Source: an uncultured Alphaproteobacteria bacterium (GTDB lineage: Bacteria; Pseudomonadota; Alphaproteobacteria; HIMB59). Taken from it: a stretch of DNA of 53,554 nucleotides. The position numbers and the translations under genes were made by a program. A model generated the notes under the pieces. The model did no database searches and had not been told where the DNA came from. It worked only from the letters and a program-made list of their open reading frames with translations. Each line of letters begins with the position of its first letter. Position 1 is the stretch's first letter. Positions 7,384-25,331 of this stretch are shown here, piece by piece. The stretch is from positions 71,628 through 125,181 of the forward strand of contig CACLZM010000004.1 in assembly GCA_902611415.1 (NCBI GenBank). Reading direction: 5' to 3'.

Positions 7384-8337
7384 TTAGTCGTAATAAAACA
7401 TTGGGCCTTTTTTAAATTCTTCCCAAGCATGCGGGTCGTGCCCTGTGACTACTGTAGCATTTTTGTCTTTTGCAATTTTTTTGAGTTTTTTTACAGAGTC
7501 AACAACGTCAACAGCAGAGCAAACAAGACCTGGTAGTGTTAAATTGTTCCAATGATCCATTGTGTAAGCTGCATCTATAGTAAGCAATACATAACCTGAA
7601 TTTGGTAAATTAACTAAAAAAGACTGATGGCCAGGTGCATGCCCCGGAGTAAAAATTACAATTATTGATCCGTCGCCATATAAGTCATAAAAATCATCAT
7701 TTTTATCTCTTAAAAATTTCCAATTAATTCCAGGTTTATCAAAGTCTTTTCTTATATATGCAGGCTTTGAGAACCAATCAGGATTAAAAGCATAATCATA
7801 TTCCTTTTGTTGAACTAGGTGTGTTGCATTAGGAAACCTTCCAACACCACCTGAGTGATCGAGGTGAAGATGAGAATGTAAGACATATCTTATACCTGCT
7901 GGATTAACCCCAATAGAGTTAAGTTGATCAATACAATTTTCAGTTTTTCCCATAATTGGATCATAAGCCGCAACAACAGAACCCCAATGAGCATGTTTAT
8001 CTTCACTGACCTCTTTTGCATTGCCTCCGTCAATGACCACATCCCCTTTTGGGTGTCTTATCAAAAACCATGGAACAGGTATCTCAAAGTCCTCATTAGA
8101 TTGATTCATTTTAATATATTTCATTTTCGTTTTTAGAGTTCCGGTCTGGAACATATAGAGCCTCATGTCAGTAGAAACTTGTGAGTTCGTTAAGTGACTA
8201 TATTCTTTTTTTGACTCTTCAATTGCTTCTTTTATGGAATATTCTTTTACTTTTTGATCTGTTTGTTTATTTGTAATAATTTTATCAAATTGATCTAAAT
8301 CAGATTTTTTGTAACTAACGCTTAATTTTTTTTCCAT
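7384..8337 (-). CDS. Metallo-beta-lactamase-fold hydrolase (N-acyl homoserine lactonase-like)
   Basis: A 317-aa zinc hydrolase. The HxHxDH motif is HLHLDH at residues 156-161. Other ligands are the Asp in LLTIDAAYTMDH and the His in VVTGHDPHAWEEF, which also resembles AttM/AiiA-type lactonases. About 55 extra N-terminal residues, charged and probably helical, precede the core, so it is longer than typical AHL lactonases (250-270 aa). No acyl-homoserine-lactone synthase or LuxR protein is nearby. In this operon a lactone or ester intermediate of amide or sugar catabolism is a more likely target than quorum signals; that is inference. Its ATG directly follows the cupin stop (TAG-ATG). Confidence 0.85.
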   Translation of the reverse strand: MEKKLSVSYKKSDLDQFDKIITNKQTDQKVKEYSIKEAIEESKKEYSHLTNSQVSTDMRLYMFQTGTLKTKMKYIKMNQSNEDFEIPVPWFLIRHPKGDVVIDGGNAKEVSEDKHAHWGSVVAAYDPIMGKTENCIDQLNSIGVNPAGIRYVLHSHLHLDHSGGVGRFPNATHLVQQKEYDYAFNPDWFSKPAYIRKDFDKPGINWKFLRDKNDDFYDLYGDGSIIVIFTPGHAPGHQSFLVNLPNSGYVLLTIDAAYTMDHWNNLTLPGLVCSAVDVVDSVKKLKKIAKDKNATVVTGHDPHAWEEFKKGPMFYYD

Positions 8338-8980: not shown

Positions 8981-11335
8981 TTAAGGTAAAGGCCCGTCCT
9001 TTAAGAAACCTTTAAGCGTATTTTCCATTATTCTAGAGACATTATTATTGTAATTATTATGTGAGAGACTACCGCACCAAGCCAAAGACCCTGGTGCAAA
9101 CATTGCTCCATTGTTAGGTGTTTTATAGTAAATCATATCAGCTCTGACCATTGGATTTTCATGACCACCACCATAGTAACCACGAACAGCAAAATGTATT
9201 TCCTCGTTAACTTGCAACATCATATTAGAGTGATCCTGCGAGCGAGCCAAATAATAAGCATTATGTGGGGTTCCAAATTCTAAGTCGTATCTGTCTAACT
9301 CCAAACCGGCAGCTCCTCCACCAACTAAACCAAAATCACCAATCACCTCATCTGCTCCAATCCCCTCAAAGATCCATGAACATTCAGGTTTAAAACTATC
9401 TTCTTCTCTTTTGTAGTATGAGGACACGTCAAATCCATAAGATGTGAAAGTTAACCCACAAACTTTAGAAGGTATTCTTCCTCGAGCTCTCCACATACCT
9501 CCATATTTACCATCAAAAGCATTATTGTATTCACCTGGGTTAGATGTCCATGCTCTTGTGCCTGCTTCACCTTTTCGAACTTCGGTAATATTAGGGTTGT
9601 CAGGATGATACTCACTAATCCAATAAAATCCATCTGATCCTAGATAAAAACATCTACCACCCTGCATTTGATATGACTCTAGAGCATCCATATATTTCTC
9701 AGATGAATACTCAGGGTGACTTCCAGTCATCACAACTTTATAACGATTTAATAAATTTATACCTTCATGTTCCAAATCCTCGTCTGTCAGAACATCAAAA
9801 TCAAAACCTTTTTCTTCTAGCCAATCAGTAAGATGTAAGTCGGCATTGAGTTGCCATAATGAAGGAGAAAGCCAATGTCTGTATTTGGGTCTCATATTAA
9901 GGATTGGTCTTAGTCTTGATGATATTGATACACCATGTCCGTCTGAGTGAAGTGAATAAGTTGATAGCCCGTATTCTCTATGTTCATTTAAATATAAATC
10001 TGCTGGCTCAAGCACAGGCACTTTACCTGCAAGCAATTGTGCTACCACAGAGTTGGTTCCAAGATTATCATTGGAGTAAGCCATGTAACTATTAGTAGGC
10101 AATAAGAATAAAGTTTTTGCAGTTGCTGTCCCCTTGGGAGGTTTAACACAAAATGGAATATAGTCCTCATTTTCTGATTCCTCTCGTCCGTCTACTCTTA
10201 GTCTTGCAGCGTAGACACCACTTTTTAATCCCTCAGGTACTTTTAAAGTAAAGTCTACATCCCATCTTGCATCGTCTATATCATCGTCATGAAAATGAAT
10301 TGCACCGTATTCCTCAGGTTTATGATGGAAAACCATTTCATCCGCTGTCCAGTTATGTCCTGTCATACCTCTGTTTGGCATATTAATAATAAATCCGTGG
10401 TGATTATTTGGAGAAGTATCAACAATCTTTGTTGAGGCAATGTTTTTGCCAATATTCGCATGAAAATCCCAGGCACCTACGACTGTTGACCTGACAGTGG
10501 TATTACACTCATCATAGCTTGATGCAAGTGTTTCAATTTCAGCCTTCGATAGCGCAATATTAGATAATCTAGGTCTGTCTATCTTTCCATTAAATGTCTT
10601 TGTTTGCTCAGGTAATTCAATAGGGTGAGGTACCTCTTTAAAATGTCCGCCAGAAATATGTCTGCCTGATCTATTGTTGAGTGTTGTGGCAGCAATTAGC
10701 AATGGAGCGTCATTAGCAGCAGGTAAAACTGAGCTAGTGGTCTCAATAATAGCTGAGGTTTCTTCAATTGGATTCAAAATAGCCATACCCAAGCCACCAT
10801 TTGTAGATGTAACTCTAGGTTCTTGATGAAGGGTAAGCCTTCTCGATTGAGCATCAAATGTTGCAATAACCAGATACCAGACCTTTCTTAAAAGCTTTTT
10901 TTCTGAGGAGACAGTAACAACCTGAGAACCATCACCAATTTCTACAGATAAACAGCCTTCATCATTAACGAAAAGGCCATAGCCTTTTTTTTCTTCTTCA
11001 TTAAATTTGGTGAAAATTCCTTGTCTGCCTTTGTCAGGGGTGGTTGGGAAAATGTAAGCTTGCATAGTGAAGCTTTCTAAATTTAAATTATCGTGTTGGG
11101 GCATGATGATATATGATCCACCATGTATTCTCTGGTTTTTTCCTTGATAGGTACCATTGCAACTAGCGTCTATTTCGGCCTCTTTATATCCCGGGCCTTC
11201 AGGATTTGTATCACCGTGTATTAAGCGGACTAATTGAACTTCATAACTGTCATTGTATTCAGCATTAATATAAAATTTAACCTCTTCGCCAGGGTGGGCT
11301 GAGTACTTATCACTATAACCTGTTATTTTTAACAT
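8981..11335 (-). CDS. dmfA2: N,N-dimethylformamidase-like amidohydrolase, large subunit
   Basis: Hydrolyses an N-substituted formamide or related small amide (dimethylformamide to dimethylamine and formate in the known enzyme) as a complex with the small subunit next door. The 784 aa match the family's roughly 760-aa large chain. An N-terminal half contains a LamG-like beta-sandwich (about residues 75-275), and a C-terminal catalytic half begins near 360. From memory, the Paracoccus enzyme binds one iron through two tyrosines and a glutamate (Y399, Y440, E521, with H519 near). Here Y420 (SYMAYSND), Y460 (LSTYSLH) and H540-P-E542 (GSHPEYSS) show nearly the same spacing (40 and 82 versus 41 and 81). 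It overlaps the small subunit stop by one base. The family is firm; the true amide is unknown. Confidence 0.9.
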   Translation of the reverse strand: MLKITGYSDKYSAHPGEEVKFYINAEYNDSYEVQLVRLIHGDTNPEGPGYKEAEIDASCNGTYQGKNQRIHGGSYIIMPQHDNLNLESFTMQAYIFPTTPDKGRQGIFTKFNEEEKKGYGLFVNDEGCLSVEIGDGSQVVTVSSEKKLLRKVWYLVIATFDAQSRRLTLHQEPRVTSTNGGLGMAILNPIEETSAIIETTSSVLPAANDAPLLIAATTLNNRSGRHISGGHFKEVPHPIELPEQTKTFNGKIDRPRLSNIALSKAEIETLASSYDECNTTVRSTVVGAWDFHANIGKNIASTKIVDTSPNNHHGFIINMPNRGMTGHNWTADEMVFHHKPEEYGAIHFHDDDIDDARWDVDFTLKVPEGLKSGVYAARLRVDGREESENEDYIPFCVKPPKGTATAKTLFLLPTNSYMAYSNDNLGTNSVVAQLLAGKVPVLEPADLYLNEHREYGLSTYSLHSDGHGVSISSRLRPILNMRPKYRHWLSPSLWQLNADLHLTDWLEEKGFDFDVLTDEDLEHEGINLLNRYKVVMTGSHPEYSSEKYMDALESYQMQGGRCFYLGSDGFYWISEYHPDNPNITEVRKGEAGTRAWTSNPGEYNNAFDGKYGGMWRARGRIPSKVCGLTFTSYGFDVSSYYKREEDSFKPECSWIFEGIGADEVIGDFGLVGGGAAGLELDRYDLEFGTPHNAYYLARSQDHSNMMLQVNEEIHFAVRGYYGGGHENPMVRADMIYYKTPNNGAMFAPGSLAWCGSLSHNNYNNNVSRIMENTLKGFLKDGPLP

Positions 11336-11868: not shown

Positions 11869-13923
11869 TCATAATGCATAAACGGAAAGTATTACAGTTG
11901 CCACAGCCATACCTATTAATATAAGTGGCCAACCATACCCTCCTCCCATTCTGTCAATATAGTTTCCTTGCTCCTCAACATCGTCAGGTGCCAAATGTTC
12001 ATCACCATTTAGTATGGGTTTTTTTGGCAAAGTCGATAAGTCCATCTTATTGGCTAAAAACCAAATTAGAAATATACCCGCTACCCACCAAATTATTTGG
12101 TAAGCCCAAAGTGAAGGGACTCCCATCACCCAATTATCATAACTTTGATCCGCACTACCAAATATTAAGTTTCCGAAAATTAACCCTGGGCCGATAGAAA
12201 AGAATGCCCAAATTAAAAAGAAGACATAAGCAAGAGATTTTATTTTTTTTCTTGATGGGTGAATACCCATATGTTCATTTAAAAAATTATGAAATGACGC
12301 TCGATGTTCTTTATCTGTATCATTACTTGCAAATATAGAGGATAAAAAACATACAATCACATTAAAGAATAAACCCCATAACCCAGAGTAGATTGTTAGT
12401 GGCCATCGCCCCCAAGGAAGAGAATTTCCTGTTAGCTTATGACCAAAAGTTTCAGCTAAAGTTACAAAACCTAATCCGGTGATGAGTCCAAGAATTGCCC
12501 CACCTCTTGTGATCCATTTAAACCAAAGCATTCCAAGTAAAACAGGAAACAATTGGAAACCAAAAGCGATTGCTAATCCACCAAGTAGTATTAGAGAAGT
12601 TTCAAAAAAAGTTGCAAGATACAGTGCCGCTAAGCTTAATAACAACATCGCTAACCTAGCAACTAATAACTCTCTTTTCCATGTAGGGTTACTATCGATA
12701 TATGGTCTATAGAGATCTCTTGCCACCATGCTGCCTGAGGTCATTAAAAAAGCAGATAATGTAGATTGAAGAGCAGCAATTATGGATATTGCTAAAAAAC
12801 CAACAATGATTGGTGAGAGATTACTGAAGCTTTCAACAAACACATAAATTAAAGATGATATATTTTGTAGACTTAGCTCAGGGAATATTTGGTTAATGGC
12901 AAAACCATTTGAATTAACAATACTATTAGCTCCAAGAAGATGTGCTCCTACACCCAATAAAGGGGCGAATATAAATAAAAATATTCCAACAACAGCACCT
13001 GAACCCCAAACTTGATAAAAATAAAATGACCTCGGTGATTTTACTGAATAGCTCCACATCGAAAATGTAGGAGAAAGCACAATACCCATATAAGAGAGAG
13101 TAAAGGATAAAATCATAACTGCTGTCCAAGGTCCTCCTAATGGGTTGTTTTTTCCAATACCTGCAACCCACTGAATTACACCAGGAACGTTGAAATATCC
13201 TGAAATATCACCGCCTCCGTAACCTCCAGTAGTTCCCCAAGCTCCGAAAGATATAAAACTATTCGCCATAGATAGGTCTTCAAAAAAACTTAAACCTCCT
13301 AAGTAATTAAATACACCAACACCAAGTGCTAAGAAAAAAACAAAAAATAACCATGATTGAACAACGCTTACACTCACCATGGGTTTAAATCCACCAGATA
13401 CTATATAAAATAAGACAACAGCAGTTAGTGCCCACATTGCAGAGTCTCTAGTTATTTCACCTCCGCTAATAAATTCTACAACATTACCTGTTGATCCAAT
13501 AATTATACCAAGAAATGGAACAGCAAAAAATAATCCGATTATTAGTACTACAATTCTAAGAGTATTACTTTGATAATATTTATAATACATCTCTCCTGGA
13601 GTGATAAAATTAAATTTTCTACTTAGCATCCACTGCCTTTTAAAAAATAGTATACTTCCGAGAGGAATTGTTATTACAATTGCAGCAGTAGCTAGAAAAG
13701 AGTATCCATCTGCATAAATTAATGATGGAAAAGAAATTATAGTTATGCCTGCAAATGTAGTTACTGTTGCAGAGAAAAAGAATACCCAAGGAGATACACT
13801 TCTATCTGCTAAATAATAAGCCTCAGGGGTTTTATTTTTTCTAAGAGTTCTAGCTCCCCAAAAAAGACAAAAGCTTATGTATAGGACAAGAAAGAAAAAA
13901 AACCAATAAAGATTAGCGACCAT
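11869..13923 (-). CDS. Sodium:solute symporter (SSS family)
   Basis: A 684-aa inner-membrane secondary transporter that uses a sodium (or proton) gradient to import a small solute. It has about 13-15 hydrophobic helices. It opens with an out-facing helix, then GARTLRKNKTPEAYYLADRS, the cytoplasmic loop typical of SSS proteins before helix 2. The segment SATVTTFAGITIISFPSLIYADG corresponds to the ion/substrate region of helix 2, and AIIAALQSTLSAFLMTSGS to the conserved helix-8-type sodium-site stretch. It is longer than most members (about 500-550 aa) because of an extended C-terminal membrane part. Between an alpha/beta hydrolase and the amidohydrolase subunits, it probably brings in the amide or a related compound; this is inferred from position. 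Confidence 0.85.
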   Translation of the reverse strand: MVANLYWFFFFLVLYISFCLFWGARTLRKNKTPEAYYLADRSVSPWVFFFSATVTTFAGITIISFPSLIYADGYSFLATAAIVITIPLGSILFFKRQWMLSRKFNFITPGEMYYKYYQSNTLRIVVLIIGLFFAVPFLGIIIGSTGNVVEFISGGEITRDSAMWALTAVVLFYIVSGGFKPMVSVSVVQSWLFFVFFLALGVGVFNYLGGLSFFEDLSMANSFISFGAWGTTGGYGGGDISGYFNVPGVIQWVAGIGKNNPLGGPWTAVMILSFTLSYMGIVLSPTFSMWSYSVKSPRSFYFYQVWGSGAVVGIFLFIFAPLLGVGAHLLGANSIVNSNGFAINQIFPELSLQNISSLIYVFVESFSNLSPIIVGFLAISIIAALQSTLSAFLMTSGSMVARDLYRPYIDSNPTWKRELLVARLAMLLLSLAALYLATFFETSLILLGGLAIAFGFQLFPVLLGMLWFKWITRGGAILGLITGLGFVTLAETFGHKLTGNSLPWGRWPLTIYSGLWGLFFNVIVCFLSSIFASNDTDKEHRASFHNFLNEHMGIHPSRKKIKSLAYVFFLIWAFFSIGPGLIFGNLIFGSADQSYDNWVMGVPSLWAYQIIWWVAGIFLIWFLANKMDLSTLPKKPILNGDEHLAPDDVEEQGNYIDRMGGGYGWPLILIGMAVATVILSVYAL

Positions 13924-13937
13924 AACTCAAACTTGAA

Positions 13938-14801
13938 TTAAGAGTTGTAATCAGTCTTTTCCTTAATAATTCTGAGTGCCTCTAATAAATATACTCTAAA
14001 GACTTCATGGTTTTCACTCATCGGGAAATGACCAATATCTCTCATTTCAATATAAACTCCTCCTTTTATTTGTCTGGCAGTATCTTCTGTTGCTTCGGGA
14101 GGGGTTAGGTAGTCATAAGTACCAGTCAGCATGATAACAGGGCACTTGTGACCATCGATATTTTGAAGCTCATCTCTTAAATCATGATCAACTGAATAAA
14201 AATGAAGGTCTCCTTTAAAAGCCTCTGATCCTTGAGTGTAATAATGCCAAGTTAACCATCTATCCATATCTGGAGATTGTGGGGCCATTAAATCCCAAAC
14301 ACCACTACCACACACTTGAGCTGCATTGGCATGAGGATGCCTCCACCAATCAATATAAAAGCCAGGGGAATAATGCGCAGCCTCGACAGGAATGACAGCT
14401 TTAAATTTATTAGGATACTTCAGAGCTAATTGAAGAGCCACGTTTCCTCCAAAAGAAGAGCCCATAAATATAGGGTTTTCAAGGTCTAAGGCCTTACAAA
14501 GTTCTACAATAAAATTACAGTAATGCTCTGCTGTTAATTTGTACTCCTCTTTCCACCATTCTGTATTATGAGGTGGATCTGATTTACCATGTCTTGGAAG
14601 GTCGTAAGCGATAACTTGATAATTTTGAGTAATTTCTTCATCTTCCAGCAATCCTCTCCACTGATGATTGTGGCATCCAGCAGTATGCTGACATACTAAT
14701 GGAGTGCCTTTTCCATTTGAAAGATAAAAGACTTTATACTGTTGACCATCTACCTCGATGGTAACGTATCTACCTATTGGGTCATGATGTTTTACTGCCA
14801 T
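13938..14801 (-). CDS. Alpha/beta-fold hydrolase
   Basis: A 287-aa cytoplasmic hydrolase of the haloperoxidase/epoxide hydrolase/C-C hydrolase type. The oxyanion-side segment is CQHTAGCHNHQWRGL. The nucleophile elbow G-S-S-F-G carries Ser116 (IFMGSSFGGN). The acid is probably in LTGTYDYLTPPE, and the base is the His in DIGHFPMSENHE. The full triad is visible, so it should be active on an ester, amide or lactone. An AAAGGA-type ribosome binding site precedes the ATG at 14801. The 25-base gap to the SCP2-like gene and 14-base gap to the symporter place it in the operon. The substrate is unknown. Confidence 0.85.
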   Translation of the reverse strand: MAVKHHDPIGRYVTIEVDGQQYKVFYLSNGKGTPLVCQHTAGCHNHQWRGLLEDEEITQNYQVIAYDLPRHGKSDPPHNTEWWKEEYKLTAEHYCNFIVELCKALDLENPIFMGSSFGGNVALQLALKYPNKFKAVIPVEAAHYSPGFYIDWWRHPHANAAQVCGSGVWDLMAPQSPDMDRWLTWHYYTQGSEAFKGDLHFYSVDHDLRDELQNIDGHKCPVIMLTGTYDYLTPPEATEDTARQIKGGVYIEMRDIGHFPMSENHEVFRVYLLEALRIIKEKTDYNS

Positions 14802-14826: not shown

Positions 14827-15216
14827 TCATACTGGGACTCCTGATTGTCTTAGCAATTCAAATTGAACAGTAAAGTTTCTAAGATTTTGCATTAAGACTA
14901 AATGATTGCCCTCGATTTTAAGGTCTTCTCTAAATGAGGCTGCATAGATACCATGAAACATAGGTTTTGGAACAGGCTTTGCAAACTCTCTCCATGTTTG
15001 CTCTGATGCTCTTAATGCAAAGTCGTATGGATCTAAACCTCCAGGGTTAGTATTAATATTTTTAACCTTTCCATCGTGCATCTCTATAATCACTTTCACA
15101 CTACCCATGTCGAAAAGAAATGAACAAGTGTAATATTTCGCCATCGCTTTTATGGTTTCATCTTTTTCAGTAAGCTCTTTATATTTTTTTGCCCAGGATT
15201 TTACATCTATACTCAT
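14827..15216 (-). CDS. SCP2-like sterol/lipid-binding-domain protein
   Basis: A 129-aa soluble protein. The central alternation VKVIIEMHDGKVKNINTNPG, then YDFALRASEQTWREFAKPVP and the closing IEGNHLVLMQNLRNFTVQFE, resembles the strands and helices of the SCP2 sterol-transfer fold, which binds hydrophobic ligands. There is no signal peptide. It starts 9 bases after the flotillin-like gene stop, so the two are probably co-translated. A lipid-binding protein next to a membrane-domain scaffold is suggestive. The fold call is by eye and could be wrong. Confidence 0.55.
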   Translation of the reverse strand: MSIDVKSWAKKYKELTEKDETIKAMAKYYTCSFLFDMGSVKVIIEMHDGKVKNINTNPGGLDPYDFALRASEQTWREFAKPVPKPMFHGIYAASFREDLKIEGNHLVLMQNLRNFTVQFELLRQSGVPV

Positions 15217-15225
15217 GAGTTATAC

Positions 15226-17214
15226 CTATTTCTTTTTCCTGGGTGTCTTTGTTGCTTGTTCATCAAATCTCATATGCTTGTCCTTCTTAGGATCATCATA
15301 GTCACCAAGAATATTCCTGATGTTACTTGCCTCGCCAGGGGACATACCAATTTCTTTTAAAAGACTATCTAAGAAGGGCTGTTGTGCTCTGTATCTAAGT
15401 GCTGAATTCACAACATTATCTGCTAAAGATCCTTTTTTTGAATATCCACCTGAAGACGCAGAGGGGTTTTCAGCGTTGCCGCTTCCTTCAGCTCCTCCTC
15501 CCTGACTAAATCCAGGTAATCCATTTACATCGACAACTTTAATTGAGTCAATATTTTGCATTGGTCTAACCCATTCTCTGATAATACCCTCAATTTTTTC
15601 AGCGAGTTTTTGTCTAAGAGCACTTCTTCTACTTGCATCACTTCTAGCATTTTCCGCTTCATTTAGGGCTTTTTTGCCAGCTGCTTCAATTTCATATCTA
15701 ATTTTCGCAGCCATGGATGCTAATTTTTCTCTCTCAGCATTTTTACTAGCGTCTATTACACCTAGAGCTTTTGTCTTCTCAGCCTGTTCGACATCTCGAA
15801 TGGTGTTGACTTTTTCCTCAGCTTCTACTGCTTTAGCTCGAGCATTTTCTTCTTCCATTTTAGTTTTTAAGACTGATTTAGATTTTTCTAGGACTTCCAT
15901 TTGTTTTTGCTTTTCTTCAATTTCTATTCTCTTTGCCTTTTCAATATCTAAGACTCTTGTCTCTTGCTCAGCAGCAATTTTGAACGCATCAACATTTTTC
16001 TGTTGAGCAGTTTTTGCATTTTTAATTTGCTCCTCAGCCATAATATAAGCCTCTTCAGACTCATACCTTTTTCTAGCTTCTTCTTTTGCTGTTTGAGCTT
16101 TTTCCTCAGCAAGTTTAATATCAACTGATCTTTGTTTTTCTAGACGACTGAATTCAACATCTCTTTCTAATTCAAGAATAGTTTTTTCTGTCTCAATATC
16201 TTTTTGTTTAATCTCGATAGAAGTTTGTTGTTTAAACTCATTTTGTTCTTTTCTTCTTTTCTCAATTTCTTGGATAAGTTTAGTTTCTTGTAAACTTTTT
16301 TCCATCTCAACAAAGTCTTTCTTGCTAATCTTAGCAATCTCTATATCTTTTTCTGAAGAGATTTCAGCCAGCTCAGACTCTTTGTCTTTCTCAGCTTTTG
16401 TTTTTACTGTCTCAGTATTTTCAATAGCTCTTTGTTGTTCGATTTCACGTTTTTGTTGATACTTTGAAAATTCTTCTTCTTTTTCAATTTCAAGAGTTTG
16501 CTTGATAGACTGGAGGTTTTTATTTCGGATACTTACCTCTGTATCTTTCTCAATATCATTTCTTTTCTTTTTACGTGACTGAGTAAATTCTGTTATTTGA
16601 GTTAAACCCTCAGCATCAAATGTATTTGAAGGGTCGAATACACCCACGGGTGCTTGGTTAAGAGATGTCAAGGAAACAGTCTCTAACTCTAAACCAGTGT
16701 GCTTAATTGCTTCTTCAACATGAGCTGCAACATTTTTAATGTACTCAGATCTATTCTCTTGAATTTCATCAAGGCTCATTTTTGCGGCTACAACACCTAG
16801 TCCATCAACAAATCGACCTTGAACAAGCTCCTTTAAATGATCAGGCTCTAATGTTCTATTTCCCAATGTTTGCGCGGCTATTGAGACAGCTTCAGTTGTA
16901 GGAGCTACTCTCACATAGAATTCAGCCGTTACTTCTGCCCTCATTCTATTTTTTGTAATAAAAGATTTACTGCCATTTCGTTGAACCTCTATACAAAGAG
17001 TTTTCATACCCACTGAGGTAATGTTATGAATAATAGGTAAAACGAAGGCACCTCCACTGATCACAACTTGTTCACCTCCCATACCGGTTCTAACAAACGC
17101 TATTTCCTTTGAGGAACGCCTGTACAACCAATGTAGCAAGTAAACTATAATTGCTATTGCTAACGCTATTAAGATAATTATCGCAATAATATCTGCACCA
17201 CTAGTAATGTTCAT
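15226..17214 (-). CDS. Flotillin-like SPFH membrane scaffold protein, YqiK type
   Basis: A 662-aa inner-membrane protein. One N-terminal helix (about residues 8-30) is followed by an SPFH/band-7 domain (about 40-210), with RTGMGGEQVVISGGAFVLP and GRFVDGLGVVAAKMSLDEI as in YqiK/flotillin-1. A very long charged coiled coil follows (about 215-520, Glu/Lys/Gln-rich), then a C-terminal region with a Gly/Ser-rich linker. Flotillins form oligomeric cages that organise membrane microdomains. Length and order match YqiK-like proteins. The gene starts 27 bases after the rhodopsin stop behind a nearly perfect Shine-Dalgarno, so the pair is probably co-expressed. That it organises the rhodopsin in the membrane is inference. 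Confidence 0.88.
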   Translation of the reverse strand: MNITSGADIIAIIILIALAIAIIVYLLHWLYRRSSKEIAFVRTGMGGEQVVISGGAFVLPIIHNITSVGMKTLCIEVQRNGSKSFITKNRMRAEVTAEFYVRVAPTTEAVSIAAQTLGNRTLEPDHLKELVQGRFVDGLGVVAAKMSLDEIQENRSEYIKNVAAHVEEAIKHTGLELETVSLTSLNQAPVGVFDPSNTFDAEGLTQITEFTQSRKKKRNDIEKDTEVSIRNKNLQSIKQTLEIEKEEEFSKYQQKREIEQQRAIENTETVKTKAEKDKESELAEISSEKDIEIAKISKKDFVEMEKSLQETKLIQEIEKRRKEQNEFKQQTSIEIKQKDIETEKTILELERDVEFSRLEKQRSVDIKLAEEKAQTAKEEARKRYESEEAYIMAEEQIKNAKTAQQKNVDAFKIAAEQETRVLDIEKAKRIEIEEKQKQMEVLEKSKSVLKTKMEEENARAKAVEAEEKVNTIRDVEQAEKTKALGVIDASKNAEREKLASMAAKIRYEIEAAGKKALNEAENARSDASRRSALRQKLAEKIEGIIREWVRPMQNIDSIKVVDVNGLPGFSQGGGAEGSGNAENPSASSGGYSKKGSLADNVVNSALRYRAQQPFLDSLLKEIGMSPGEASNIRNILGDYDDPKKDKHMRFDEQATKTPRKKK

Positions 17215-17241: not shown

Positions 17242-17943
17242 TTATTGTCCATTAACTCTCATGTCTTGTATTGCTGCTTTGTAAATAATTAAACCAAAAA
17301 CTATTTTATTTAAAAAGTCTGCTAAATTGTAAATCACATTAACACTGTTGGGGTCAATACCCCCACCCAAATGCTCTATGAAATATCCCATTGGGTATAT
17401 AGCCCATCCAATTGTAATAATAAGTCTGTTTGAGAAAAAAACCATTTGTACATTTTCGTTTCCGCATCTAGCATTTGCTCTTCCGGCCTCTCCAACATAT
17501 AGCTCACCGAGGATGTACAACCATCCAGCTAACCAAACAATGAAACCTAATGTCTTGCTCATATAACCCGCTGCACCTAAGAAACCTGCTACAACAAAAA
17601 CTAAAGTTCCAACCAATAATCTCCAGAACATGCCTTGTTTAACTTTGACAACTGACATAAGCATTGCATAAAAAATAAGCACAAGCATTGGAAAGTTAAG
17701 AAACCAATCTATATATCTTAATAAAGTCGGGGCGGTGCCGCTAACTACCCAGAGATTTTTTACGAAAAAATAATGTATAGAGGACATCAAGCATACAACA
17801 GCTATCATTGTCATCGGTGTATGAAATCTTGTGCTTACTTTGCTACGCTCAAAAAAGAAAAACAATGTGGCACCAATCATGCCAACAGAAATTAACCAGA
17901 AAGACCCCCCTACAATGTCGTAAGGGAGAAGCATTTTATTCAT
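17242..17943 (-). CDS. Proteorhodopsin-family microbial rhodopsin with a D-N-I helix-C motif
   Basis: A seven-helix retinal protein, 233 aa. Against green proteorhodopsin numbering there is a constant offset of 18: His57 (=H75), Arg76 (=R94), Asp79 (=D97, Schiff-base proton acceptor), Leu87 (=L105, green-tuned), Asp209 (=D227) and the retinal lysine Lys213 (=K231) are all present. The helix-C triad is D79, N83, I90. Position 101 is Asn, not Thr, and the proton-donor position 108 is Ile, not Glu. WAIYPMGYF and IYNLADFLNKIVFGLII are typical. There is no cleavable signal peptide. It may be a slow or altered pump, another ion pump or a photosensor. It is first in the operon with the flotillin-like gene. 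No retinal-synthesis genes are in the window. Confidence 0.93.
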   Translation of the reverse strand: MNKMLLPYDIVGGSFWLISVGMIGATLFFFFERSKVSTRFHTPMTMIAVVCLMSSIHYFFVKNLWVVSGTAPTLLRYIDWFLNFPMLVLIFYAMLMSVVKVKQGMFWRLLVGTLVFVVAGFLGAAGYMSKTLGFIVWLAGWLYILGELYVGEAGRANARCGNENVQMVFFSNRLIITIGWAIYPMGYFIEHLGGGIDPNSVNVIYNLADFLNKIVFGLIIYKAAIQDMRVNGQ

Positions 17944-18066: not shown

Positions 18067-19458
18067 TTATATTTGCTCCCTAATATGGGGTGCTCTGGAG
18101 TAAAGAGCAACAAGAGGTAAAATAAGAAGACCAAATATAAATTGCTGACCCTCAAAACTTAAGCCTAGACCTGCCAAAAATGTACTAATTACTTGCAGTG
18201 CAAGAACACCGATTACTGTAAAGCCGTATCCTCCATATCCACCTAATAAGGAAGTTCCTCCTACAGCCACAGCTGCCACTGTTAAAAATAAATATTGATC
18301 ACCTACACCAATGAACCCTCCACCACTCCAACCAAGTAACATTGCCCCGGTTGCTGCAGAAGTGAATCCACTAATGACATAAACTCCAACCCAATATGCT
18401 CTCTCAGAAATTGATAATCTGTCAGCAGATAACCTTTTTCCACCAACAGCATATAAGTTTCTTCCCCACTTAGTGTGTCTTAGTCCAACAATTAACAAAA
18501 TTGAAATCAATATCCAAATTAAGATAACTGGAGGTATTGGAAGACCAAAAAATTTTCCATTTAATGAGGCCAAATTTTTTAACCAATCTGGAACAACACC
18601 AAAAACAGTTCCACCTGTAACAGTAGGAAGTGATACCAATATCTGCACTCCGCCTACTACCATGAAGCCAACTCCAAGCGTGACTATTAGTGATTGACCT
18701 TGGAGATTAAAACTTATCAACCCATTGAAAAGCCCGACAATCGTACCAAAAGCAAGAATAACTATAAACGCAAGCCAAGGAGGGACTCCAAGTGAAATAA
18801 GTGACATTAATCCTAAATTAGTTGCGCCAATTAAAAATGGTATTGATAAATCTAGGCCGCCTAACATCACAACTAATGTTTGTCCAATAGTTGCAAGCCC
18901 TAAGAAAGAGGCAAAGACCAACATAGATTTAATATTCTGCAATGATAAGAAGCCATCAATAGAAACTGATCCTATTATAAAAAGACCAACTAGCACGGCG
19001 ACTCCTATTATCACACTCTTATTAATATTTAAAAATTTGTATGCAAGAAATGCTAAGATTAAGAAACCTAATAGTATGATTGCTGATACGACTGTTCTAC
19101 CTGAGAAGAACCCGGGTACCAAAAAACATAGTAATATAAAAAGACCTAAAAGAAGTAAAAATCCCGTAACAGCTATCCAGTTCTTTGCAATAAGGTCCCA
19201 AAAAAGGCTTCTTTTACTTGCGGTTTCAGTAGTTTCAGGAGGTTGAGATCCATCTTCCTTTACTAAAGATCGATAAGACCATCTAACTAAGAAAAAATGC
19301 CATCCCCAAAGAATAATGGCAACAACAGCTACAGAGTAAAATGCAACCTGTATCCAATCAGTTCTATCTACATAACCAAGAACTGCGGTACCTATCCCAG
19401 CAGCAACAGCAAAAAGAATTCCAAGTCCTTTTAAAAAATTATGAGTTCTTTTCTCCAT
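18067..19458 (-). CDS. ABC sugar-type transporter permease, RbsC family, with N-terminal extension
   Basis: A 463-aa inner-membrane permease of the ribose/BMP type. The core from about residue 130 has the RbsC landmarks TLVVMLGGLDLSIPFLIG (the D-L-S helix), FNLQGQSLIVTLGVGFMVVGG and AVAVGGTSLLGGYGGYG near the end. About 110 extra N-terminal residues with additional hydrophobic helices make it longer than typical members (320-350 aa). It starts 3 bases after the 757-aa permease stop, so the two are likely to form the heteromeric channel for the binding protein at 24171 and ATPase at 25344. Confidence 0.88.
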   Translation of the reverse strand: MEKRTHNFLKGLGILFAVAAGIGTAVLGYVDRTDWIQVAFYSVAVVAIILWGWHFFLVRWSYRSLVKEDGSQPPETTETASKRSLFWDLIAKNWIAVTGFLLLLGLFILLCFLVPGFFSGRTVVSAIILLGFLILAFLAYKFLNINKSVIIGVAVLVGLFIIGSVSIDGFLSLQNIKSMLVFASFLGLATIGQTLVVMLGGLDLSIPFLIGATNLGLMSLISLGVPPWLAFIVILAFGTIVGLFNGLISFNLQGQSLIVTLGVGFMVVGGVQILVSLPTVTGGTVFGVVPDWLKNLASLNGKFFGLPIPPVILIWILISILLIVGLRHTKWGRNLYAVGGKRLSADRLSISERAYWVGVYVISGFTSAATGAMLLGWSGGGFIGVGDQYLFLTVAAVAVGGTSLLGGYGGYGFTVIGVLALQVISTFLAGLGLSFEGQQFIFGLLILPLVALYSRAPHIREQI

Positions 19459-19461
19459 TTA

Positions 19462-21735
19462 CTAAACTTTTCTATCTTCTGATAGACCTCCCCATTTTTC
19501 AAGTCCTTCTTGAGATTTTAATTTTATTTTATAAACACCAAACGCTTGCCATATCAGAGGCGAAATAGCTATTCCAATTGCAGTTATTAAAATCATTTTC
19601 CAATAAGGATAACCAATTGCGAAGAACATCGCTGACCATGTTAATGCAGCTATACTTAAAATAGCAATGTAAGGTCTGAATCTAGCAAATGATATTTTTG
19701 CTCCCATTGTTAAATATGTAAAAAATTGAAATACAAATATTGCAAATATAATTAGAGCTGCTTCTTTAAGCCAAGTAACATCACTTGTGATAAATTCTCC
19801 TCGCATAGGTCTTGTATAGTTAATTGATGATGTATCGCCAACAATTAATTCTGTAATAATTGGAGAGTAAAACTTACTTCCATCATCTGTAATAATTGTT
19901 CCAGATGGTGAGGCTAAAAAGTATACAGCGAGTATTGCTAATACACCGAGGAAAATAATGAAAACATTATTCAAATTGATATTCGAGAAAAGAGTTGGTG
20001 CCGTGAGTAAAAAAAGTAAAAATAAAATTAATATTACAGCGTATCCATCTATCCCAAAGAAACTCTGTCTATTTGACTCAATTCCGTAATAAGATATTGC
20101 AGCAAATACAATAAATGAAATTGCTATTGCAAATAATACCAATGTTTGTGTTTTGATTTCTTTTCTAAATCTTGGCATAGCAATTATTACTATCGCAGAT
20201 GTAAAGAAAACTATTCCTCCTAAAGTTGCGACAGCGTAAGCGAGGCCAACCAAAGCACTCGAGGAAGATGAAAAATCAGGTAATCCTGCACCAACTCTTA
20301 GATATTCAGATGTGAAATACTGAGGAGCATAATTTAAAATATATTGTAAGTTGGTGCCCAAATCAGCGTTAACGAAATAAGCCTCTCTCGTGCCACTCCA
20401 AACACAACCGAAGAAAATAACAATTGCTGCGATAATAAAAGACACTGTTGGGCCATCTCTATGTTTAACAAGCAAATAGACGAGATAAATCAAGGCTGCT
20501 ATTCCGATAGCAATAAACATCCACACTGTAGAATTTCCACCCTCTGCGCATGCCTTACCTGTGATTAAACAGTCACTCCCTGACTCAAGAGCTTTTTCAA
20601 AAATCTCAGCATCTTTAGATTTACCTCCAAAACCTCCCACAGTCCCTCTAGTCACTTGGTCAAATTTCATATGAATTTGAACAGCAGCAGCACTTAATGT
20701 TCCAATAATAAAAAATACAAAAACTGATAAATTTTTGAATGCTTTTTGAATATAAGGAAGTGCAATAAGTATTAAAAGAGAAGCCACCAATACCGCACCA
20801 TATGATAAGTCTGTTACGAAACTTTGAAATCTTTCAAACCTAAAAGTTGATAGAATAAAATTTATCAAATAAATGTTAACTGAACCTAGAATAGCTCCAA
20901 ATGCACCGCCTCTTCCACCAATTAAACTTGACCCACCCAATACAAGTGCTGTAACTGCCATCAACGTATAAGTAGTACCTTGAGTTGGGTCTCCAGAACC
21001 AATTAAGCCTGTAAATGCAATAGCTGCGAGTGCAGCGTAAACTCCACCGATAATATGAGCGCCAATTCTTACAACATAAATTCTCACTCCACTTGTATAA
21101 GCAGACTTTTCATCTGAACCCATTAATTTTAAATGTTGCCAGTAAGCAGTATGAGTTAGTGCATACCAAATAAGTGTCGAAAAAATTAAAAGTATTAGTG
21201 TGGGCTGTACTACCTCAGTTCCAGCGCTCCAAGATAACATCCAATCAGGTGCTCTTCCTCCTGGTCTTGGTAAAATAACTAGATTGATACCAGAGAAAGC
21301 AAGAAACATACTTAAGGCAACTATTATAGGTTGAACTCTAATAAAAATTACAATTAAAGCATAAAGAAATTGGTAAATTACTCCTATTGCAAGAGCACAT
21401 ATGAAATACGCAACTGGCGATTGGATATAACCTGCAGCATAAAGTTGTATTGTCGTTACATTAATAAAACCAATAAGTGGTCCTATTGATAAATCTACTG
21501 TTACTCTGCCGGCTAAAGCCAATGCAGTAAGAGCATAAGTAGCAAGAATAAGGGGTGTTGAAACCATAATTGCGGTTCCAATACCCGAGCCTGAAATAAT
21601 TTGAGGTCCTCTAATCATCGCAAAAATCATTAGGGCAAAAAATATAAATATTGGGACGATTAAGTATTTTGTTGACTGAGGATCAGAACCTGGAATTTGA
21701 GAGGGTTTTATTGCTGCTACAAGTTGATTAACCAT
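19462..21735 (-). CDS. Oversized ABC permease: RbsC-like domain fused to an extra membrane region
   Basis: A 757-aa inner-membrane protein. Residues about 1-335 form a normal RbsC-type permease: RVTVDLSIGPLIGFINV near the D-L-S helix, FIRVQPIIVALSMFLAFSG, and ALVLGGSSLIGGRGGAFGAI. The remaining roughly 420 residues add about 9 hydrophobic helices and two large polar loops, one with cysteines (SGSDCLITGKACAEGG). I cannot assign this region to a family. It lies in the operon with biotin carboxylase upstream (5-base gap) and a second permease downstream. The frame is continuous and stops are clean, so it is not an assembly read-through. Confidence 0.85.
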   Translation of the reverse strand: MVNQLVAAIKPSQIPGSDPQSTKYLIVPIFIFFALMIFAMIRGPQIISGSGIGTAIMVSTPLILATYALTALALAGRVTVDLSIGPLIGFINVTTIQLYAAGYIQSPVAYFICALAIGVIYQFLYALIVIFIRVQPIIVALSMFLAFSGINLVILPRPGGRAPDWMLSWSAGTEVVQPTLILLIFSTLIWYALTHTAYWQHLKLMGSDEKSAYTSGVRIYVVRIGAHIIGGVYAALAAIAFTGLIGSGDPTQGTTYTLMAVTALVLGGSSLIGGRGGAFGAILGSVNIYLINFILSTFRFERFQSFVTDLSYGAVLVASLLILIALPYIQKAFKNLSVFVFFIIGTLSAAAVQIHMKFDQVTRGTVGGFGGKSKDAEIFEKALESGSDCLITGKACAEGGNSTVWMFIAIGIAALIYLVYLLVKHRDGPTVSFIIAAIVIFFGCVWSGTREAYFVNADLGTNLQYILNYAPQYFTSEYLRVGAGLPDFSSSSSALVGLAYAVATLGGIVFFTSAIVIIAMPRFRKEIKTQTLVLFAIAISFIVFAAISYYGIESNRQSFFGIDGYAVILILFLLFLLTAPTLFSNINLNNVFIIFLGVLAILAVYFLASPSGTIITDDGSKFYSPIITELIVGDTSSINYTRPMRGEFITSDVTWLKEAALIIFAIFVFQFFTYLTMGAKISFARFRPYIAILSIAALTWSAMFFAIGYPYWKMILITAIGIAISPLIWQAFGVYKIKLKSQEGLEKWGGLSEDRKV

Positions 21736-21740
21736 TATTA

Positions 21741-23243
21741 TTAGTCAAAATATACGACTTTGATACCCCCTCTGTCAGACTGCGATCTTCCATGACCTAC
21801 TTTAAGCTTATCTGTTTCAACAATTTTAATTCTCTTTGAGTCCAAATCAATATTTTTAGTAAAACCATTTTTAAAAGATGTCTTACTAATAAGAGTGTTT
21901 AAATTATTTTCGATATATTTTGTGTTGTGTTTACCCTCTATAAAGTTTTTGTCTTTGAGAAGACAAATTAAAAAGGGGATGTTTGTCTTAATACCTTCAA
22001 TCTGGGTGCCCTCTAAAAATTTTATTAATTTGGATATAGCATCGTCTCGAATTAAGTCGTGAGATATAATTTTTCCAATCATCGGATCATAATAGAAACT
22101 TACTTCATCTCTTTCATCATATCCCCAATCTAATCTTATGCCATTTGGTATTTTAGGAAATTTTAATTTATTTATTTTTCCTGGAGATGGTAAGAAATTT
22201 TGAGAAGGATCCTCTGCATAAACTCTGCACTCTATTGAATGTCCATAAGTTTTAATTTTACTTTGATTTAAAAATTTATTTTTTCTGTTAAAAGCAAAAT
22301 TTATTTGCATGGAAATTAAATCATTATTTGTAACTAACTCTGTAACAGGATGTTCAACTTGAATTCTAGTATTCATCTCAAGAAAATAATATTTCATTTG
22401 TTGGACATCATATATAAACTCTACAGTACCTGCTCCTTCGTATTTTACATCAGAAGATAATTTTACAGCGGCTTGAGCCATATTGTTAATTAATTCCCTA
22501 TCTACTTCTGGTGCCGGAGACTCCTCAATTATCTTTTGATATCTTCTTTGCATAGAACAATCTCTTTCGAACAGATGCACAGATCCTTTTGCACCAAATC
22601 CAAAAACTTGTATTTCAATATGTCGGGCGTTGGTGATAAATTTCTCAATAAAAATATCTCCGTTACCAAAAGATTTTGCAGCAAGATTACTAGTTTTTTC
22701 AATTGCATTAGCTAGGTCTTTAAAATTTTGGACGACGCTCATGCCTATCCCCCCACCACCAGCACTTGATTTTACAAGTAAAGGGTAACCTATTGCTTCA
22801 CATTTTGTCTTAAGTTGTTCATCGCTTAATTTATGAACATTATTTATACCCGGACATATAGGTATATTGGAATTTAGGGCTAATTCACGAGCAATATCCT
22901 TATTTCCCATTGATTTTATTGATTTTGGTTTAGGGCCAATCCATGTGATTCCTCTGTTTATGACCTCTTGAGCAAAAGTGTCGTTTTCTGATAAAAAACC
23001 AAAACCAGGATGAATAGCATCCACATTTGATTTTGTAGCTATTTCTAAAATCTTATTGTAAGAAAGATAACTTTCCTGAGCTTTACTAGGTCCTATATAA
23101 TAAGACTCGTCAGATAATCTTACATGCTTTGAATTCTTATCTGCATCTGAGTAAACAGCTACAGATTTGTGACCTAATATTTTACAACTTTTTATAATTC
23201 TATTTGCTATTTCACCGCGATTAGCAATTAAAATTTTTTTCAT
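21741..23243 (-). CDS. Biotin carboxylase subunit of a split urea-carboxylase-like enzyme
   Basis: ATP-dependent carboxylation of biotin on a carrier protein, using bicarbonate. At 500 aa it has the biotin carboxylase fold plus about 50 extra C-terminal residues. Visible: the N-terminal ILIANRGEIANRI, the ATP-grasp glycine loop SSAGGGGIGM (about 159-168), and the active-site EMNTRIQVEHPVTE with Glu289, Asn291, Arg293 and Glu297. The GGGGIG loop recalls urea carboxylase more than acetyl-CoA carboxylase. No acyl-CoA carboxyltransferase gene is near. The likely partners are the KipI/KipA-like subunits and the free biotin domain at 27134-29585. The start overlaps pxpA by 4 bases. It is distinct in context from housekeeping accC. 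Confidence 0.88.
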   Translation of the reverse strand: MKKILIANRGEIANRIIKSCKILGHKSVAVYSDADKNSKHVRLSDESYYIGPSKAQESYLSYNKILEIATKSNVDAIHPGFGFLSENDTFAQEVINRGITWIGPKPKSIKSMGNKDIARELALNSNIPICPGINNVHKLSDEQLKTKCEAIGYPLLVKSSAGGGGIGMSVVQNFKDLANAIEKTSNLAAKSFGNGDIFIEKFITNARHIEIQVFGFGAKGSVHLFERDCSMQRRYQKIIEESPAPEVDRELINNMAQAAVKLSSDVKYEGAGTVEFIYDVQQMKYYFLEMNTRIQVEHPVTELVTNNDLISMQINFAFNRKNKFLNQSKIKTYGHSIECRVYAEDPSQNFLPSPGKINKLKFPKIPNGIRLDWGYDERDEVSFYYDPMIGKIISHDLIRDDAISKLIKFLEGTQIEGIKTNIPFLICLLKDKNFIEGKHNTKYIENNLNTLISKTSFKNGFTKNIDLDSKRIKIVETDKLKVGHGRSQSDRGGIKVVYFD

Positions 23244-24025
23244 TTCTTATCAACGATATAAGGCATTTTGGTATGATTGCCGTTTGAAGTTTTTTGTGGA
23301 ATTTTTTTATCAGAGGAAATTTTTTCTCTCAGAGCCTTTAAGATTTCTACAGCATTAGGAGTGTCAGAGTGGACACAAATTGTTTCACATCCTACAACTA
23401 CATCGTTTCCTTGAATAGTTTTAACTTTATTTTCATTCATTGCTCTTAAACAACGCTCCACAGCTCTATCAGTTGGATAATATTTATTTCGACCCTTGGC
23501 TATAACCAAATAACCTGTTTCATCATATTCCAAGTCAGAGTAAAATTCTCCGTAAAATTTTATTCCTCTTTCTTTGTATACTTTTTCGTGAAAGGTATTA
23601 ACCATTCCGAAAATACCAACATTAAAAATTTCAGCTGCGTCAGCAATTCCATGAGCAACATCTTCCTCTTTCGCGGAGACACCATATAAAGATCCATGAG
23701 GTTTGATATGGTTTAATGGCATTCCATACTCATCTAGAAAGGCTTTGATGGCACCAGTTTGATACATCACAAGATTTTTGATTTCATCACGCTTCATTTT
23801 CATCGGCCTTCTTCCAAATCCTACTAAGTCAGGATAGGCAGGGTGCGATCCAACTTTCACATCATATTTTTTTGCAAGCTCGACAGTTTTCCTCATTGTG
23901 TTTGGGTCTGAGGCGTGGAACCCACAGGCTACATTAGCAGCATCTATATAAGGCATTATCTCTTCGTCATCTGCGAAGGAGTAAATACCAAAGCCCTCAC
24001 CCATATCGCAATTCAAATCGACCAT
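23240..24025 (-). CDS. pxpA: LamB/YcsF family protein, 5-oxoprolinase subunit A-like
   Basis: A 261-aa TIM-barrel-like protein that in E. coli and B. subtilis works with PxpB and PxpC to open 5-oxoproline using ATP. Family signatures are all present: MVDLNCDMGEGFG at the start, ANVACGFHASDPNTM, KVGSHPAYPDLVGFGRR, HIKPHGSLYGV and ICVHSDTPNAVEIL. The length is normal, with a short Lys-rich tail. It is the first gene of the minus-strand operon, divergent from the binding protein, and shares 4 bases with biotin carboxylase. The presence of a biotin carboxylase and carrier with the A/B/C set suggests a substrate or mechanism beyond classical 5-oxoprolinase. Confidence 0.92.
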   Translation of the reverse strand: MVDLNCDMGEGFGIYSFADDEEIMPYIDAANVACGFHASDPNTMRKTVELAKKYDVKVGSHPAYPDLVGFGRRPMKMKRDEIKNLVMYQTGAIKAFLDEYGMPLNHIKPHGSLYGVSAKEEDVAHGIADAAEIFNVGIFGMVNTFHEKVYKERGIKFYGEFYSDLEYDETGYLVIAKGRNKYYPTDRAVERCLRAMNENKVKTIQGNDVVVGCETICVHSDTPNAVEILKALREKISSDKKIPQKTSNGNHTKMPYIVDKK

Positions 24026-24170
24026 GAATAATAAATTCCTCTCATTTATAATTTACAGAAAATCAGGCTTTTATGTGAAAATCTTTTCCACATGTTGGAA
24101 CAATTTTGCTTATATTTTTCAGAATATAGGTATTATTATAGATACTTATATAAGTAAGGAGGATAAAACT
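24026..24170. promoter_or_regulatory. Divergent intergenic control region of the carboxylase/transporter island
   Basis: This 145-base AT-rich gap lies between the pxpA start (minus) and the binding protein start (plus) and must drive both halves of the enzyme-transporter system. AAGGAGG at 24156-24162 lies 8 bases before the plus-strand ATG. TATTAT- and TATATA-like boxes occur near 24131-24152. No clear operator was found, and no regulator gene is nearby. Confidence 0.5.
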
Positions 24171-25331
24171 ATGACATTGCTTAAAAAGTTCATAGCTATT
24201 TTAGCTGTTAGTTTTGTCGGTGTCGCAGGTAACTTAAATGCTGACATTTTAGACGAAATTCCAGCTGATATTAGAGACTTCGTTTATAATCCTGACTTTA
24301 TGGATCCTAACCAACCGCTTGGTGAAAGTGTTTACAGAAATTGGAAAAGTGATAGACCGCTTCCTTGGACTATCGGTTATGCAAGTTCTTACGCAGGTAA
24401 TCTATGGAGAAAAGGTGTGATGGAGAGATTGTACGGTGACTATTTACCAAAAATGAAAGCAGCAGGTATTCTTAATGATATCGTTGTTACACAATCTAAT
24501 CTAAAAGACGCGGTTCAAATTCAACAAATGAGACAGTTAACTGATCAAGGAGTTGACGGATTAATAGTCTGTTGCTCAAATCCTGTTGCATTAAATCCAA
24601 CTATTGAGTATGCGTATGGAAAAGGTGTTCCTACTGCATCAATGACAGGATACTTAACTTCAGAATATGCTATCAGTACATCTGTTAACTATAAATTAAC
24701 CGGATATTATATTGCACAATGGTTAGCAGAAACTATTGGTGGTGAAGGTAATGTTGTTATCATGGAAGGAATTCCTGGAACATCAGCATCTGACTCACAG
24801 CACCAAGGTATGCTAGATGGATTTGCAGAATATCCAGATATTACCGTTGTTGCTGAAATTGCACACATGTGGACACCACAAATTGCTCAAGCTGAACTTC
24901 AAAAATGGTTATCAGCTAATACAATTGAAGTTGACGGATTTGCTGTTCAGTCTTCAGGAGAGTCCGGAGCACTTAACGCTCTAGAATCATCTGGAAGACC
25001 AATGGTCCCTATGGCTTTGGGTGGAGAAATTGGTGCATTCTGCTATTGGAGAAATAATCCAGACTTTATTGACAGAGCGGTCTATGCATGGCCTCCTGGA
25101 GATGATGCAGAGTTTGCGATGAATGTTCTTTTAAGAACTATGTATGGTCAGGGTCTTAAAATCCAGTCTATCTTAGTTCCTCCATATGAAGAAGATGTTG
25201 AGACTATTCAGTCTTTTGTCCCTGAAGATTGTGACAGAAACTCAAGTGAGTTTAGAACTGTTGGAATTGAAAACTGGGCTAGTGATGAATACTTAAATAA
25301 TTTCTTCGATCGTGGAGAAGCATTACTTTAA
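24171..25331 (+). CDS. Periplasmic binding protein of RbsB-type ABC importer
   Basis: A 386-aa substrate-binding protein. The ATG at 24171 is chosen because AAGGAGG lies 8 bases before it and it gives a signal peptide (MTLLKKFIAILAVSF...NLNA); the longer upstream frame is not protein-like. The type-1 periplasmic fold is shown by WTIGYASSYAGNLWRKGVME, the hinge-type LTDQGVDGLIVCCSNP, GEGNVVIMEGIPGTSASDSQ and VDGFAVQSSGESGALNALE. Typical sugar/AI-2 binders are about 320 aa, so this one is longer. Because the operon continues with a carboxylase/5-oxoprolinase-like enzyme, the ligand may be a nitrogenous cyclic amide or ureide and not a sugar. Confidence 0.88.
   Translation: MTLLKKFIAILAVSFVGVAGNLNADILDEIPADIRDFVYNPDFMDPNQPLGESVYRNWKSDRPLPWTIGYASSYAGNLWRKGVMERLYGDYLPKMKAAGILNDIVVTQSNLKDAVQIQQMRQLTDQGVDGLIVCCSNPVALNPTIEYAYGKGVPTASMTGYLTSEYAISTSVNYKLTGYYIAQWLAETIGGEGNVVIMEGIPGTSASDSQHQGMLDGFAEYPDITVVAEIAHMWTPQIAQAELQKWLSANTIEVDGFAVQSSGESGALNALESSGRPMVPMALGGEIGAFCYWRNNPDFIDRAVYAWPPGDDAEFAMNVLLRTMYGQGLKIQSILVPPYEEDVETIQSFVPEDCDRNSSEFRTVGIENWASDEYLNNFFDRGEALL

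Follow-up and report, generated by a model that had tools for sequence, protein, structure and literature searches.

Gene content of the window

The window, which is the whole stretch of 53,554 nucleotides that was analysed, contains a rhodopsin gene and, starting 27 nt downstream on the same strand, a flotillin gene, located among genes encoding an importer, a symporter and catabolic enzymes:

7384..8337, minus strand: AttM-family lactonase with a metallo-beta-lactamase fold (NCBIfam AHLLactAttM, 425.5 bits, cut-off 390)
8981..11335, minus strand: N,N-dimethylformamidase beta-subunit-like protein (domain match, DMFA2_C)
11869..13923, minus strand: sodium:solute symporter (Pfam, SSF)
13938..14801, minus strand: alpha/beta hydrolase, 287 aa (Pfam)
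14827..15216, minus strand: 129-aa protein, SCP2-like below threshold (14.6 bits, cut-off 21.3)
15226..17214, minus strand: flotillin, 662 aa (Pfam, SPFH/Band_7 and Flot)
17242..17943, minus strand: DNI flotillin-associated rhodopsin, 233 aa, ATG start; codons D79 17707-17709, N83 17695-17697, F84 17692-17694, I90 17674-17676, G120 17584-17586, W137 17533-17535, K213 17305-17307
18067..19458, minus strand: ABC importer permease (Pfam, BPD_transp_2)
19462..21735, minus strand: ABC importer permease, long (Pfam, BPD_transp_2)
21741..23243, minus strand: biotin carboxylase (domain match)
23240..24025, minus strand: LamB/YcsF (PxpA-like) protein (domain match)
24024..25331, plus strand: periplasmic binding protein (Pfam, Peripla_BP_4)
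25344..27128, plus strand: ABC ATPase of the sugar-importer type, two ABC_tran stretches (domain match)
27134-28396 (CT_C_D) and 28397-29365 (CT_A_B), plus strand: two carboxyltransferase-domain genes, PxpBC-like
32797..33960, plus strand: iron-containing alcohol dehydrogenase (Fe-ADH)
43089..44546, minus strand: succinate-semialdehyde dehydrogenase (SSADH; TIGR01780, 728.4 bits, cut-off 646.35)

NCBIfam labels the AttM protein as a quorum-quenching lactonase. Together, AttM, Fe-ADH and SSADH are reminiscent of gamma-butyrolactone breakdown in Agrobacterium. Since the SSADH gene is 25 kb off and among sugar genes, its tie to the cluster is uncertain. No transducer was seen among the Pfam-annotated neighbours of the rhodopsin, neither the rhodopsin nor the flotillin has an NCBIfam match, and promoter and terminator scans gave signals at chance level only.

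Landmark residues of the rhodopsin

Pfam Bac_rhodopsin matches the protein with 110.5 bits (cut-off 24.6). In an alignment with bacteriorhodopsin (BR; sequence checked at D85, D96, W182, D212 and K216), residues R76, D79, N83, L87, I90, D209 and K213 correspond to BR R82, D85, T89, L93, D96, D212 and K216. The D-N-I helix-C motif described by a sequence-only reading, which gave no strand, thus belongs to a real minus-strand reading frame, and the constant offset of 18 that it reported is borne out in proteorhodopsin (PR) numbering for every landmark, H57 included. That reading was also right that the helix-C Thr and the cytoplasmic donor are missing, their positions being occupied by N83 and I90, and that no D-T-E, N-D-Q or N-T-Q label suits the protein: the DTE triad is broken at two positions, and the sodium and chloride pump types have Asn at BR D85, where Asp79 is found. 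Judged by these residues, the protein is not a standard proton pump. It does have the Schiff-base lysine, K213, which separates it from the lysine-less rhodopsins, and retains W180, Y183 and P184 alongside K213, D79, D209, R76 and H57.

The structure model of the rhodopsin had a pLDDT of 48.5, which rose to 80.6 after adding one distant viral-contig rhodopsin. In the viral_contigs scans, L169 was the single true rhodopsin; a second hit, L171, was rejected as a chance match. No match was found in the phage records searched.

Relatives, triads and clade

Forty-eight relative loci, picked by similarity to the window rhodopsin, were fetched: 37 are HIMB59-type and 11 are SAR11-type. One of them, L034, has an N-terminal frameshift and was left out of the residue table, which contains 47 loci. 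H57, R76, D209 and K213 are invariant in all 47. HIMB59-type loci show the triad DNI (36 of 37) or DNV (one), and SAR11-type loci show DTT (10 of 11) or ETT (one, L045, in which the counterion Asp is replaced by Glu). In the tree, the flotillin-associated rhodopsins (FARs) form a clade of 32 rows (support 100/100), separate from the PRs under a midpoint root, and the window lineage (13 rows, 100/99) is nested in the HIMB59 FARs (17 rows, 99/97). One FAR pair of six has a finite dS, with a dN/dS of 0.046 at a dS of 1.56, near saturation; in the other five dS is saturated and dN ranges from 0.029 to 0.097. Sequence comparison thus indicates that the family is under purifying selection and that the motif is neither chance nor decay, because the landmarks are conserved in 47/47 loci and the triads are consistent within lineages.

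The sequence-only reading named no characterised class with D-N-I. The motif is, on the contrary, in the text of Haro-Moreno et al. (2023; PMC10308929), which assigns DTT to the FArhodopsins of SAR11, DTL to those of Pseudothioglobus and DNI to those of HIMB59; a flotillin always adjoins the gene, and the genome encodes a bona fide PR at another place. The idea of a class unknown to science was rejected on this ground, and the triads of the nearest relatives, which the sequence-only reading had proposed to list, agree with it. The window protein shows the DNI motif, a position in a separate clade within the proteorhodopsin family, and a shortened N terminus (233 aa, versus 255 aa for the PR of its own genome). 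With the DNI FArhodopsin, as far as that text describes it, it shares the triad, a HIMB59-like host, the adjoining flotillin, the lysine, a PR elsewhere, the lack of a leader peptide and L or Q at the tuning site, and no defining difference was found. The window gene is therefore a DNI-type FArhodopsin of a HIMB59/AEGEAN-169-like alphaproteobacterium, already known; the host of the HIMB59-type loci would be the same kind of bacterium, from their match to PMC10308929.

The closest solved chains to the window protein are those of PsFAR, 9r21 and 9r23. PsFAR shows 57-58% identity (Foldseek), a TM-score of 0.91 to the model, and equal length and numbering, but it has D-T-M, H84 and E120 whereas the window protein has D-N-I, F84, G120 and W137. 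No paper on PsFAR was found in a search that excluded bioRxiv and most subscription journals. The SAR11 DTT-T rhodopsins, colourless and non-pumping in E. coli according to the text of Olson et al. (2018; PMC5864233), share with the window protein the FAR clade, the flotillin partner, F84 and 67-69% identity; they differ in T83, T90, W116, Q120, F180 and H184, and have no importer genes in their 6 kb flanks.

The flotillin partner

A tblastn match to the flotillin is present in 48/48 loci, 10-30 nt 3' of the rhodopsin in 47 of them; in L034 the frameshift makes the distance unmeasurable. In L047, downstream of 6702, a long open frame (420 aa) begins 754 nt after the rhodopsin; the beginning of the flotillin frame seems to be disrupted, and the tblastn match nevertheless lies at the usual 27 nt. 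Among 60 genomes, the window's own included, 27 contain FAR-type matches (28 in total), each accompanied by a Flot match roughly 2 kb away, on the contig and strand of the rhodopsin. Flot also turns up in four of the 33 FAR-negative genomes: three are partial or short open frames and one is a 580-aa type. A second flotillin type, with open frames of 580-582 aa, is located away from the FAR locus (G002 C1, G024 C1 and G013 C52; L081-L083). One MAG, G015, carries both a HIMB59-type (DNV) and a SAR11-type FAR-flotillin pair, on C125 and C23 (L096 and L097), which may be due to contamination (4%) or transfer. No relative of the flotillin was found among solved structures at E<=0.001.

The retinal pocket

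At BR positions 90, 118, 122 and 141, PRs show V, M, G and G (A in one), the window lineage F, F, G and W, its HIMB59 sister F, F, E and G, the SAR11-type F, W, Q and G, and PsFAR H, M, E and G. Around the retinal ring, Phe84, Phe116 and Trp137 of the window protein therefore stand for Val, Met and Gly of PR. Gly120 with Trp137 is present in 31/31 tabulated loci of the window lineage, with which L034 agrees by eye, and Glu120 with Gly137 in 5/5 tabulated loci of the sister; none shows a mixed combination. Because the window lineage is nested in the HIMB59 FARs, two pocket changes fall on one branch. By its residues, the Gly120/Trp137 lineage has its cavity filled from a different side than its sister, and this is one event, so outside statistics. 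The split between Gly120/Trp137 and Glu120/Gly137 within HIMB59-type FARs is, at the level of sequence, new here.

Residue volumes summed over six ring-site positions, a crude measure that is blind to geometry and backbone shifts and takes residue volumes and pocket positions as given, are 767-846 in PR pocket types (n=17), 882 in PsFAR, 973 in the HIMB59 sister, 1016 in SAR11 and 1062 in the window protein, the highest among the compared rows. By residue identity and this volume sum, the pocket is reduced, as in other FArhodopsins, and retinal probably does not fit in it. According to its PDB title, 9r23 is the PsFAR H84V/E120G double mutant, with a volume sum of 791; both mutations fall on the pocket positions 84 and 120 considered here, which carry identical numbers in the two proteins, and this speaks for the filled-pocket reading. 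The AlphaFold models described in the text of PMC10308929 show retinal clashes in all three marine groups.

Distribution of the gene neighbourhood

Homologues of the permease at 18067..19458 are present in 37/37 HIMB59-type stretches and those of the long permease in 36/37, and for none of the 11 SAR11-type loci do the fetched 6 kb flanks include an ABC permease gene. As neighbours of FArhodopsins, the text of PMC10308929 names an inner membrane translocator, a sodium symporter, hydrolases, Fe-ADHs, PxpA and dimethylformamidase, and reports no transducer; its main text is without the terms lactonase, butyrolactone, Rhizob-, plasmid or ABC transporter.

A class-wide profile search of 385 genomes, 30 of them matching at E<=1e-60, found FAR-clade rhodopsins in three alphaproteobacterial genomes of 4.0-4.5 Mb, 96-97% complete (f145: G627, G713 and G783), whose fetched stretches have a GC content of 64-66%. 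These rhodopsins (L136-L138) show the triads DTV, DTI and DTT, retain the lysine, and have a volume sum, by the same crude measure, of 629, i.e., an unfilled pocket. They also have Gly at the BR M145 position, with V, I or T as donor residue (L163, L164 and L165). The f145 gene order is ATPase, permease, permease, rhodopsin, flotillin, 129-aa protein and hydrolase; homologues of both permeases, the binding protein and the ATPase are present in 3/3 stretches, and the 129-aa protein and the hydrolase show 79% and 82% identity to those of the window. Since the f145 rhodopsins keep the lysine and an unfilled pocket in the same operon, the FARs may descend from a retinal-binding protein. The f145 genomes may or may not overlap the freshwater FAR set of PMC10308929.

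A tblastn search with an f145 rhodopsin matched six of 72,556 plasmid-collection records, and five were fetched: Pararhizobium gei, Martelella sp. AD-3, M. lutilitoris, Hoeflea sp. IMCC20628 and Shinella sp. PSBB067 (stretches L272/L277, NZ_CP119410.1, and L273, L274, L275 and L276). The source notes give cell culture for P. gei, a monoisolate for Shinella, and a single cell from a cold seep for M. lutilitoris. The sixth match, Dysgonomonadaceae zrk40, was left out. The Dysgonomonadaceae and M. lutilitoris plasmids (CP070278.1 and NZ_CP066788.1) are near-equal in length, a possible mislabel. Another possible mislabel is Shinella NZ_CP069303.1, a 4.6 Mb record filed as a plasmid.

In the five rhodopsins, BR K216 is replaced by Arg (four) or Leu (one) and D85 by Gly (all five), and their identity to the window rhodopsin is 30-33%. 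The binding protein, the ATPase, both permeases, the rhodopsin, the flotillin and a symporter homologue (26-28% identity) are present in 5/5 stretches. AttM and Fe-ADH are in four, missing from Shinella; the 129-aa protein and the hydrolase are each in four, and in Martelella AD-3 the 129-aa gene sits just beyond the fetched stretch. Identity of the 129-aa protein to that of the window is 64-67% in three stretches and 30% in Shinella, and that of the hydrolase 76-78% in three and 47% in Shinella. An SSADH homologue adjoins the rhodopsin operon in two of the five. A tree of 49 rows separates 28 PR rows from 17 FAR and four lysine-less rows (99/97, midpoint root only); the FAR group alone has a support of 81/74 and the Shinella branch is long. 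The FAR neighbourhood in Hyphomicrobiales records and in f145 genomes, beyond the three marine taxa of the published description, is new here, and the same literature search gave no paper on FARs with a lactonase or in Hyphomicrobiales.

The 129-aa protein matches 25 plasmid-collection records, 14 of them from Rhodococcus. R. aetherivorans pN1 (L278, NZ_CP106984.1, 7983-10875) contains the 129-aa gene with the alpha/beta hydrolase and SSADH genes as a unit of three, without a rhodopsin.

Co-occurrence with proteorhodopsin

The genome from which the window comes (81% complete, 1.24 Mb in 30 contigs) contains a second rhodopsin on G000:C10, with a DTE triad and Gln at the tuning site, in a PR-crt-blh cluster (blh and crtB). 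It has 49% identity to the window protein, and both have the helix-G Asp and Lys; the PR differs in its Thr and Glu, open pocket, leader and PR-crt-blh cluster. PR is present in 22 of the 27 FAR genomes and in nine of the 11 SAR11-type genomes, so retinal would be at hand. The five FAR genomes without a PR or blh match are G015, G016, G017, G022 and G034. In G016, G017 and G034 the contigs break at the PR cluster. A real loss in G015, in which both flanks of the G020-type site are on one contig without the cluster, was rejected: its nearest relative, G024, carries the PR cluster at another site, and the G015 contigs end exactly there (104 stretches, 820,815 bases of about 1.4 Mb). Assembly gaps seem to account for all the exceptions but G022, so FAR without PR cannot be shown in the HIMB59 lineage, and that claim was dropped. 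Each of the three f145 genomes has a single rhodopsin match at E<=1e-60, a cut-off which the PRs of other genomes did reach.

Discussion

The reading we hold to be somewhat probable is that the window encodes a retinal-free rhodopsin fold acting, together with the flotillin, around a system that would import a small compound resembling a lactone or an amide. The protein would have neither retinal nor photocycle, and D79, D209, R76 and K213 would persist as an internal charge network holding the fold. The rhodopsin and the co-transcribed flotillin would form or mark a membrane patch around the sugar-type ABC importer and the symporter, which would bring in the compound, and the neighbouring lactonase, hydrolase and carboxylase-type enzymes would open it. 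The importer part is suggested by the gene neighbourhood. Retinal binding is unlikely because of the pocket residues, the published clashes, the inactive DTT-T relatives and the lysine-less relatives in the same neighbourhood. Weighing against the reading of a retinal-free partner of an importer, K213 and the counterions are conserved under selection in marine FARs, most FAR genomes have a PR and hence retinal at hand, the f145 pocket is unfilled, the SAR11-type flanks are without permeases, and the lysine-less proteins are distant and on a long branch. Other lysine-less rhodopsins (freshwater FARs, and Rh-noK cited in the text of PMC10308929) are like the window protein in having a rhodopsin fold in which retinal is unlikely, and the freshwater FARs also adjoin a flotillin; unlike them, the window protein retains the lysine.

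The sequence-only reading had predicted from the missing donor a slow photocycle or sensing. A photoactive, retinal-binding rhodopsin of this kind, be it a light sensor or a slow pump, would explain the retention of K213, D79, D209, R76, H57, W180, Y183 and P184, and both the PR-crt-blh cluster of the genome and the unfilled pocket of the f145 relatives are consistent with it. A pump or sensor needs retinal, however, and the ring site is occupied by F84, F116 and W137; since, moreover, the published AlphaFold models clash, the DTT-T relatives are described as inactive and colourless in E. coli and other relatives have lost the lysine, a slow photocycle or sensing is unlikely, and so, as far as the residues indicate, is any light function of the DNI protein. 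Neither the Pfam-annotated neighbours nor the text of PMC10308929 offers a transducer for it. It is quite unlikely that FARs act as PR helpers, in mixed oligomers with the DTE pump that tune it in dim light, as hypothesized by the authors in 2023: the co-occurrence counts above and the apparent assembly gaps in four of the five HIMB59 exceptions would fit this role, but the FAR gene has importer and catabolic genes, and no PR, as its linked neighbours, and the nearly complete f145 genomes have one rhodopsin match each. Retinal-free proteoopsin holds decanoate through a carboxylate-lysine salt bridge, according to the text of PMC11322631 (8cnk), and the window protein might likewise bind or sense another apolar ligand, e.g., a fatty acid, held via K213; this is very unlikely, given that its pocket is the fullest of the compared rows and that the lysine-less relatives retain the gene neighbourhood.

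Extended from the retinal-free fold around an importer to the whole family, a tentative reading, to which we give somewhat less than even chances, is that opsins were co-opted to give FArhodopsins, which would act in the membrane, independently of light, beside a flotillin and an ABC importer, in an operon whose products take up lactone- or amide-like compounds and open their ring. The basal f145 proteins would still look retinal-capable, the marine pockets would have been filled differently, by Glu or Gln120 or by Gly120 with Trp137, and the Hyphomicrobiales proteins would have lost the lysine and the counterion and kept the operon. The role of FArhodopsins has been unsettled since the inactive deep-water DTT-T proteins (2018) and the naming of the class (2023). 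The new lead is that importer, rhodopsin, flotillin and catabolic genes are found together in named Hyphomicrobiales strains with lysine-less rhodopsins, one of these strains being a type strain from cell culture. If the neighbourhood reading is true, the role of a blind rhodopsin would be accessible in a growable host.
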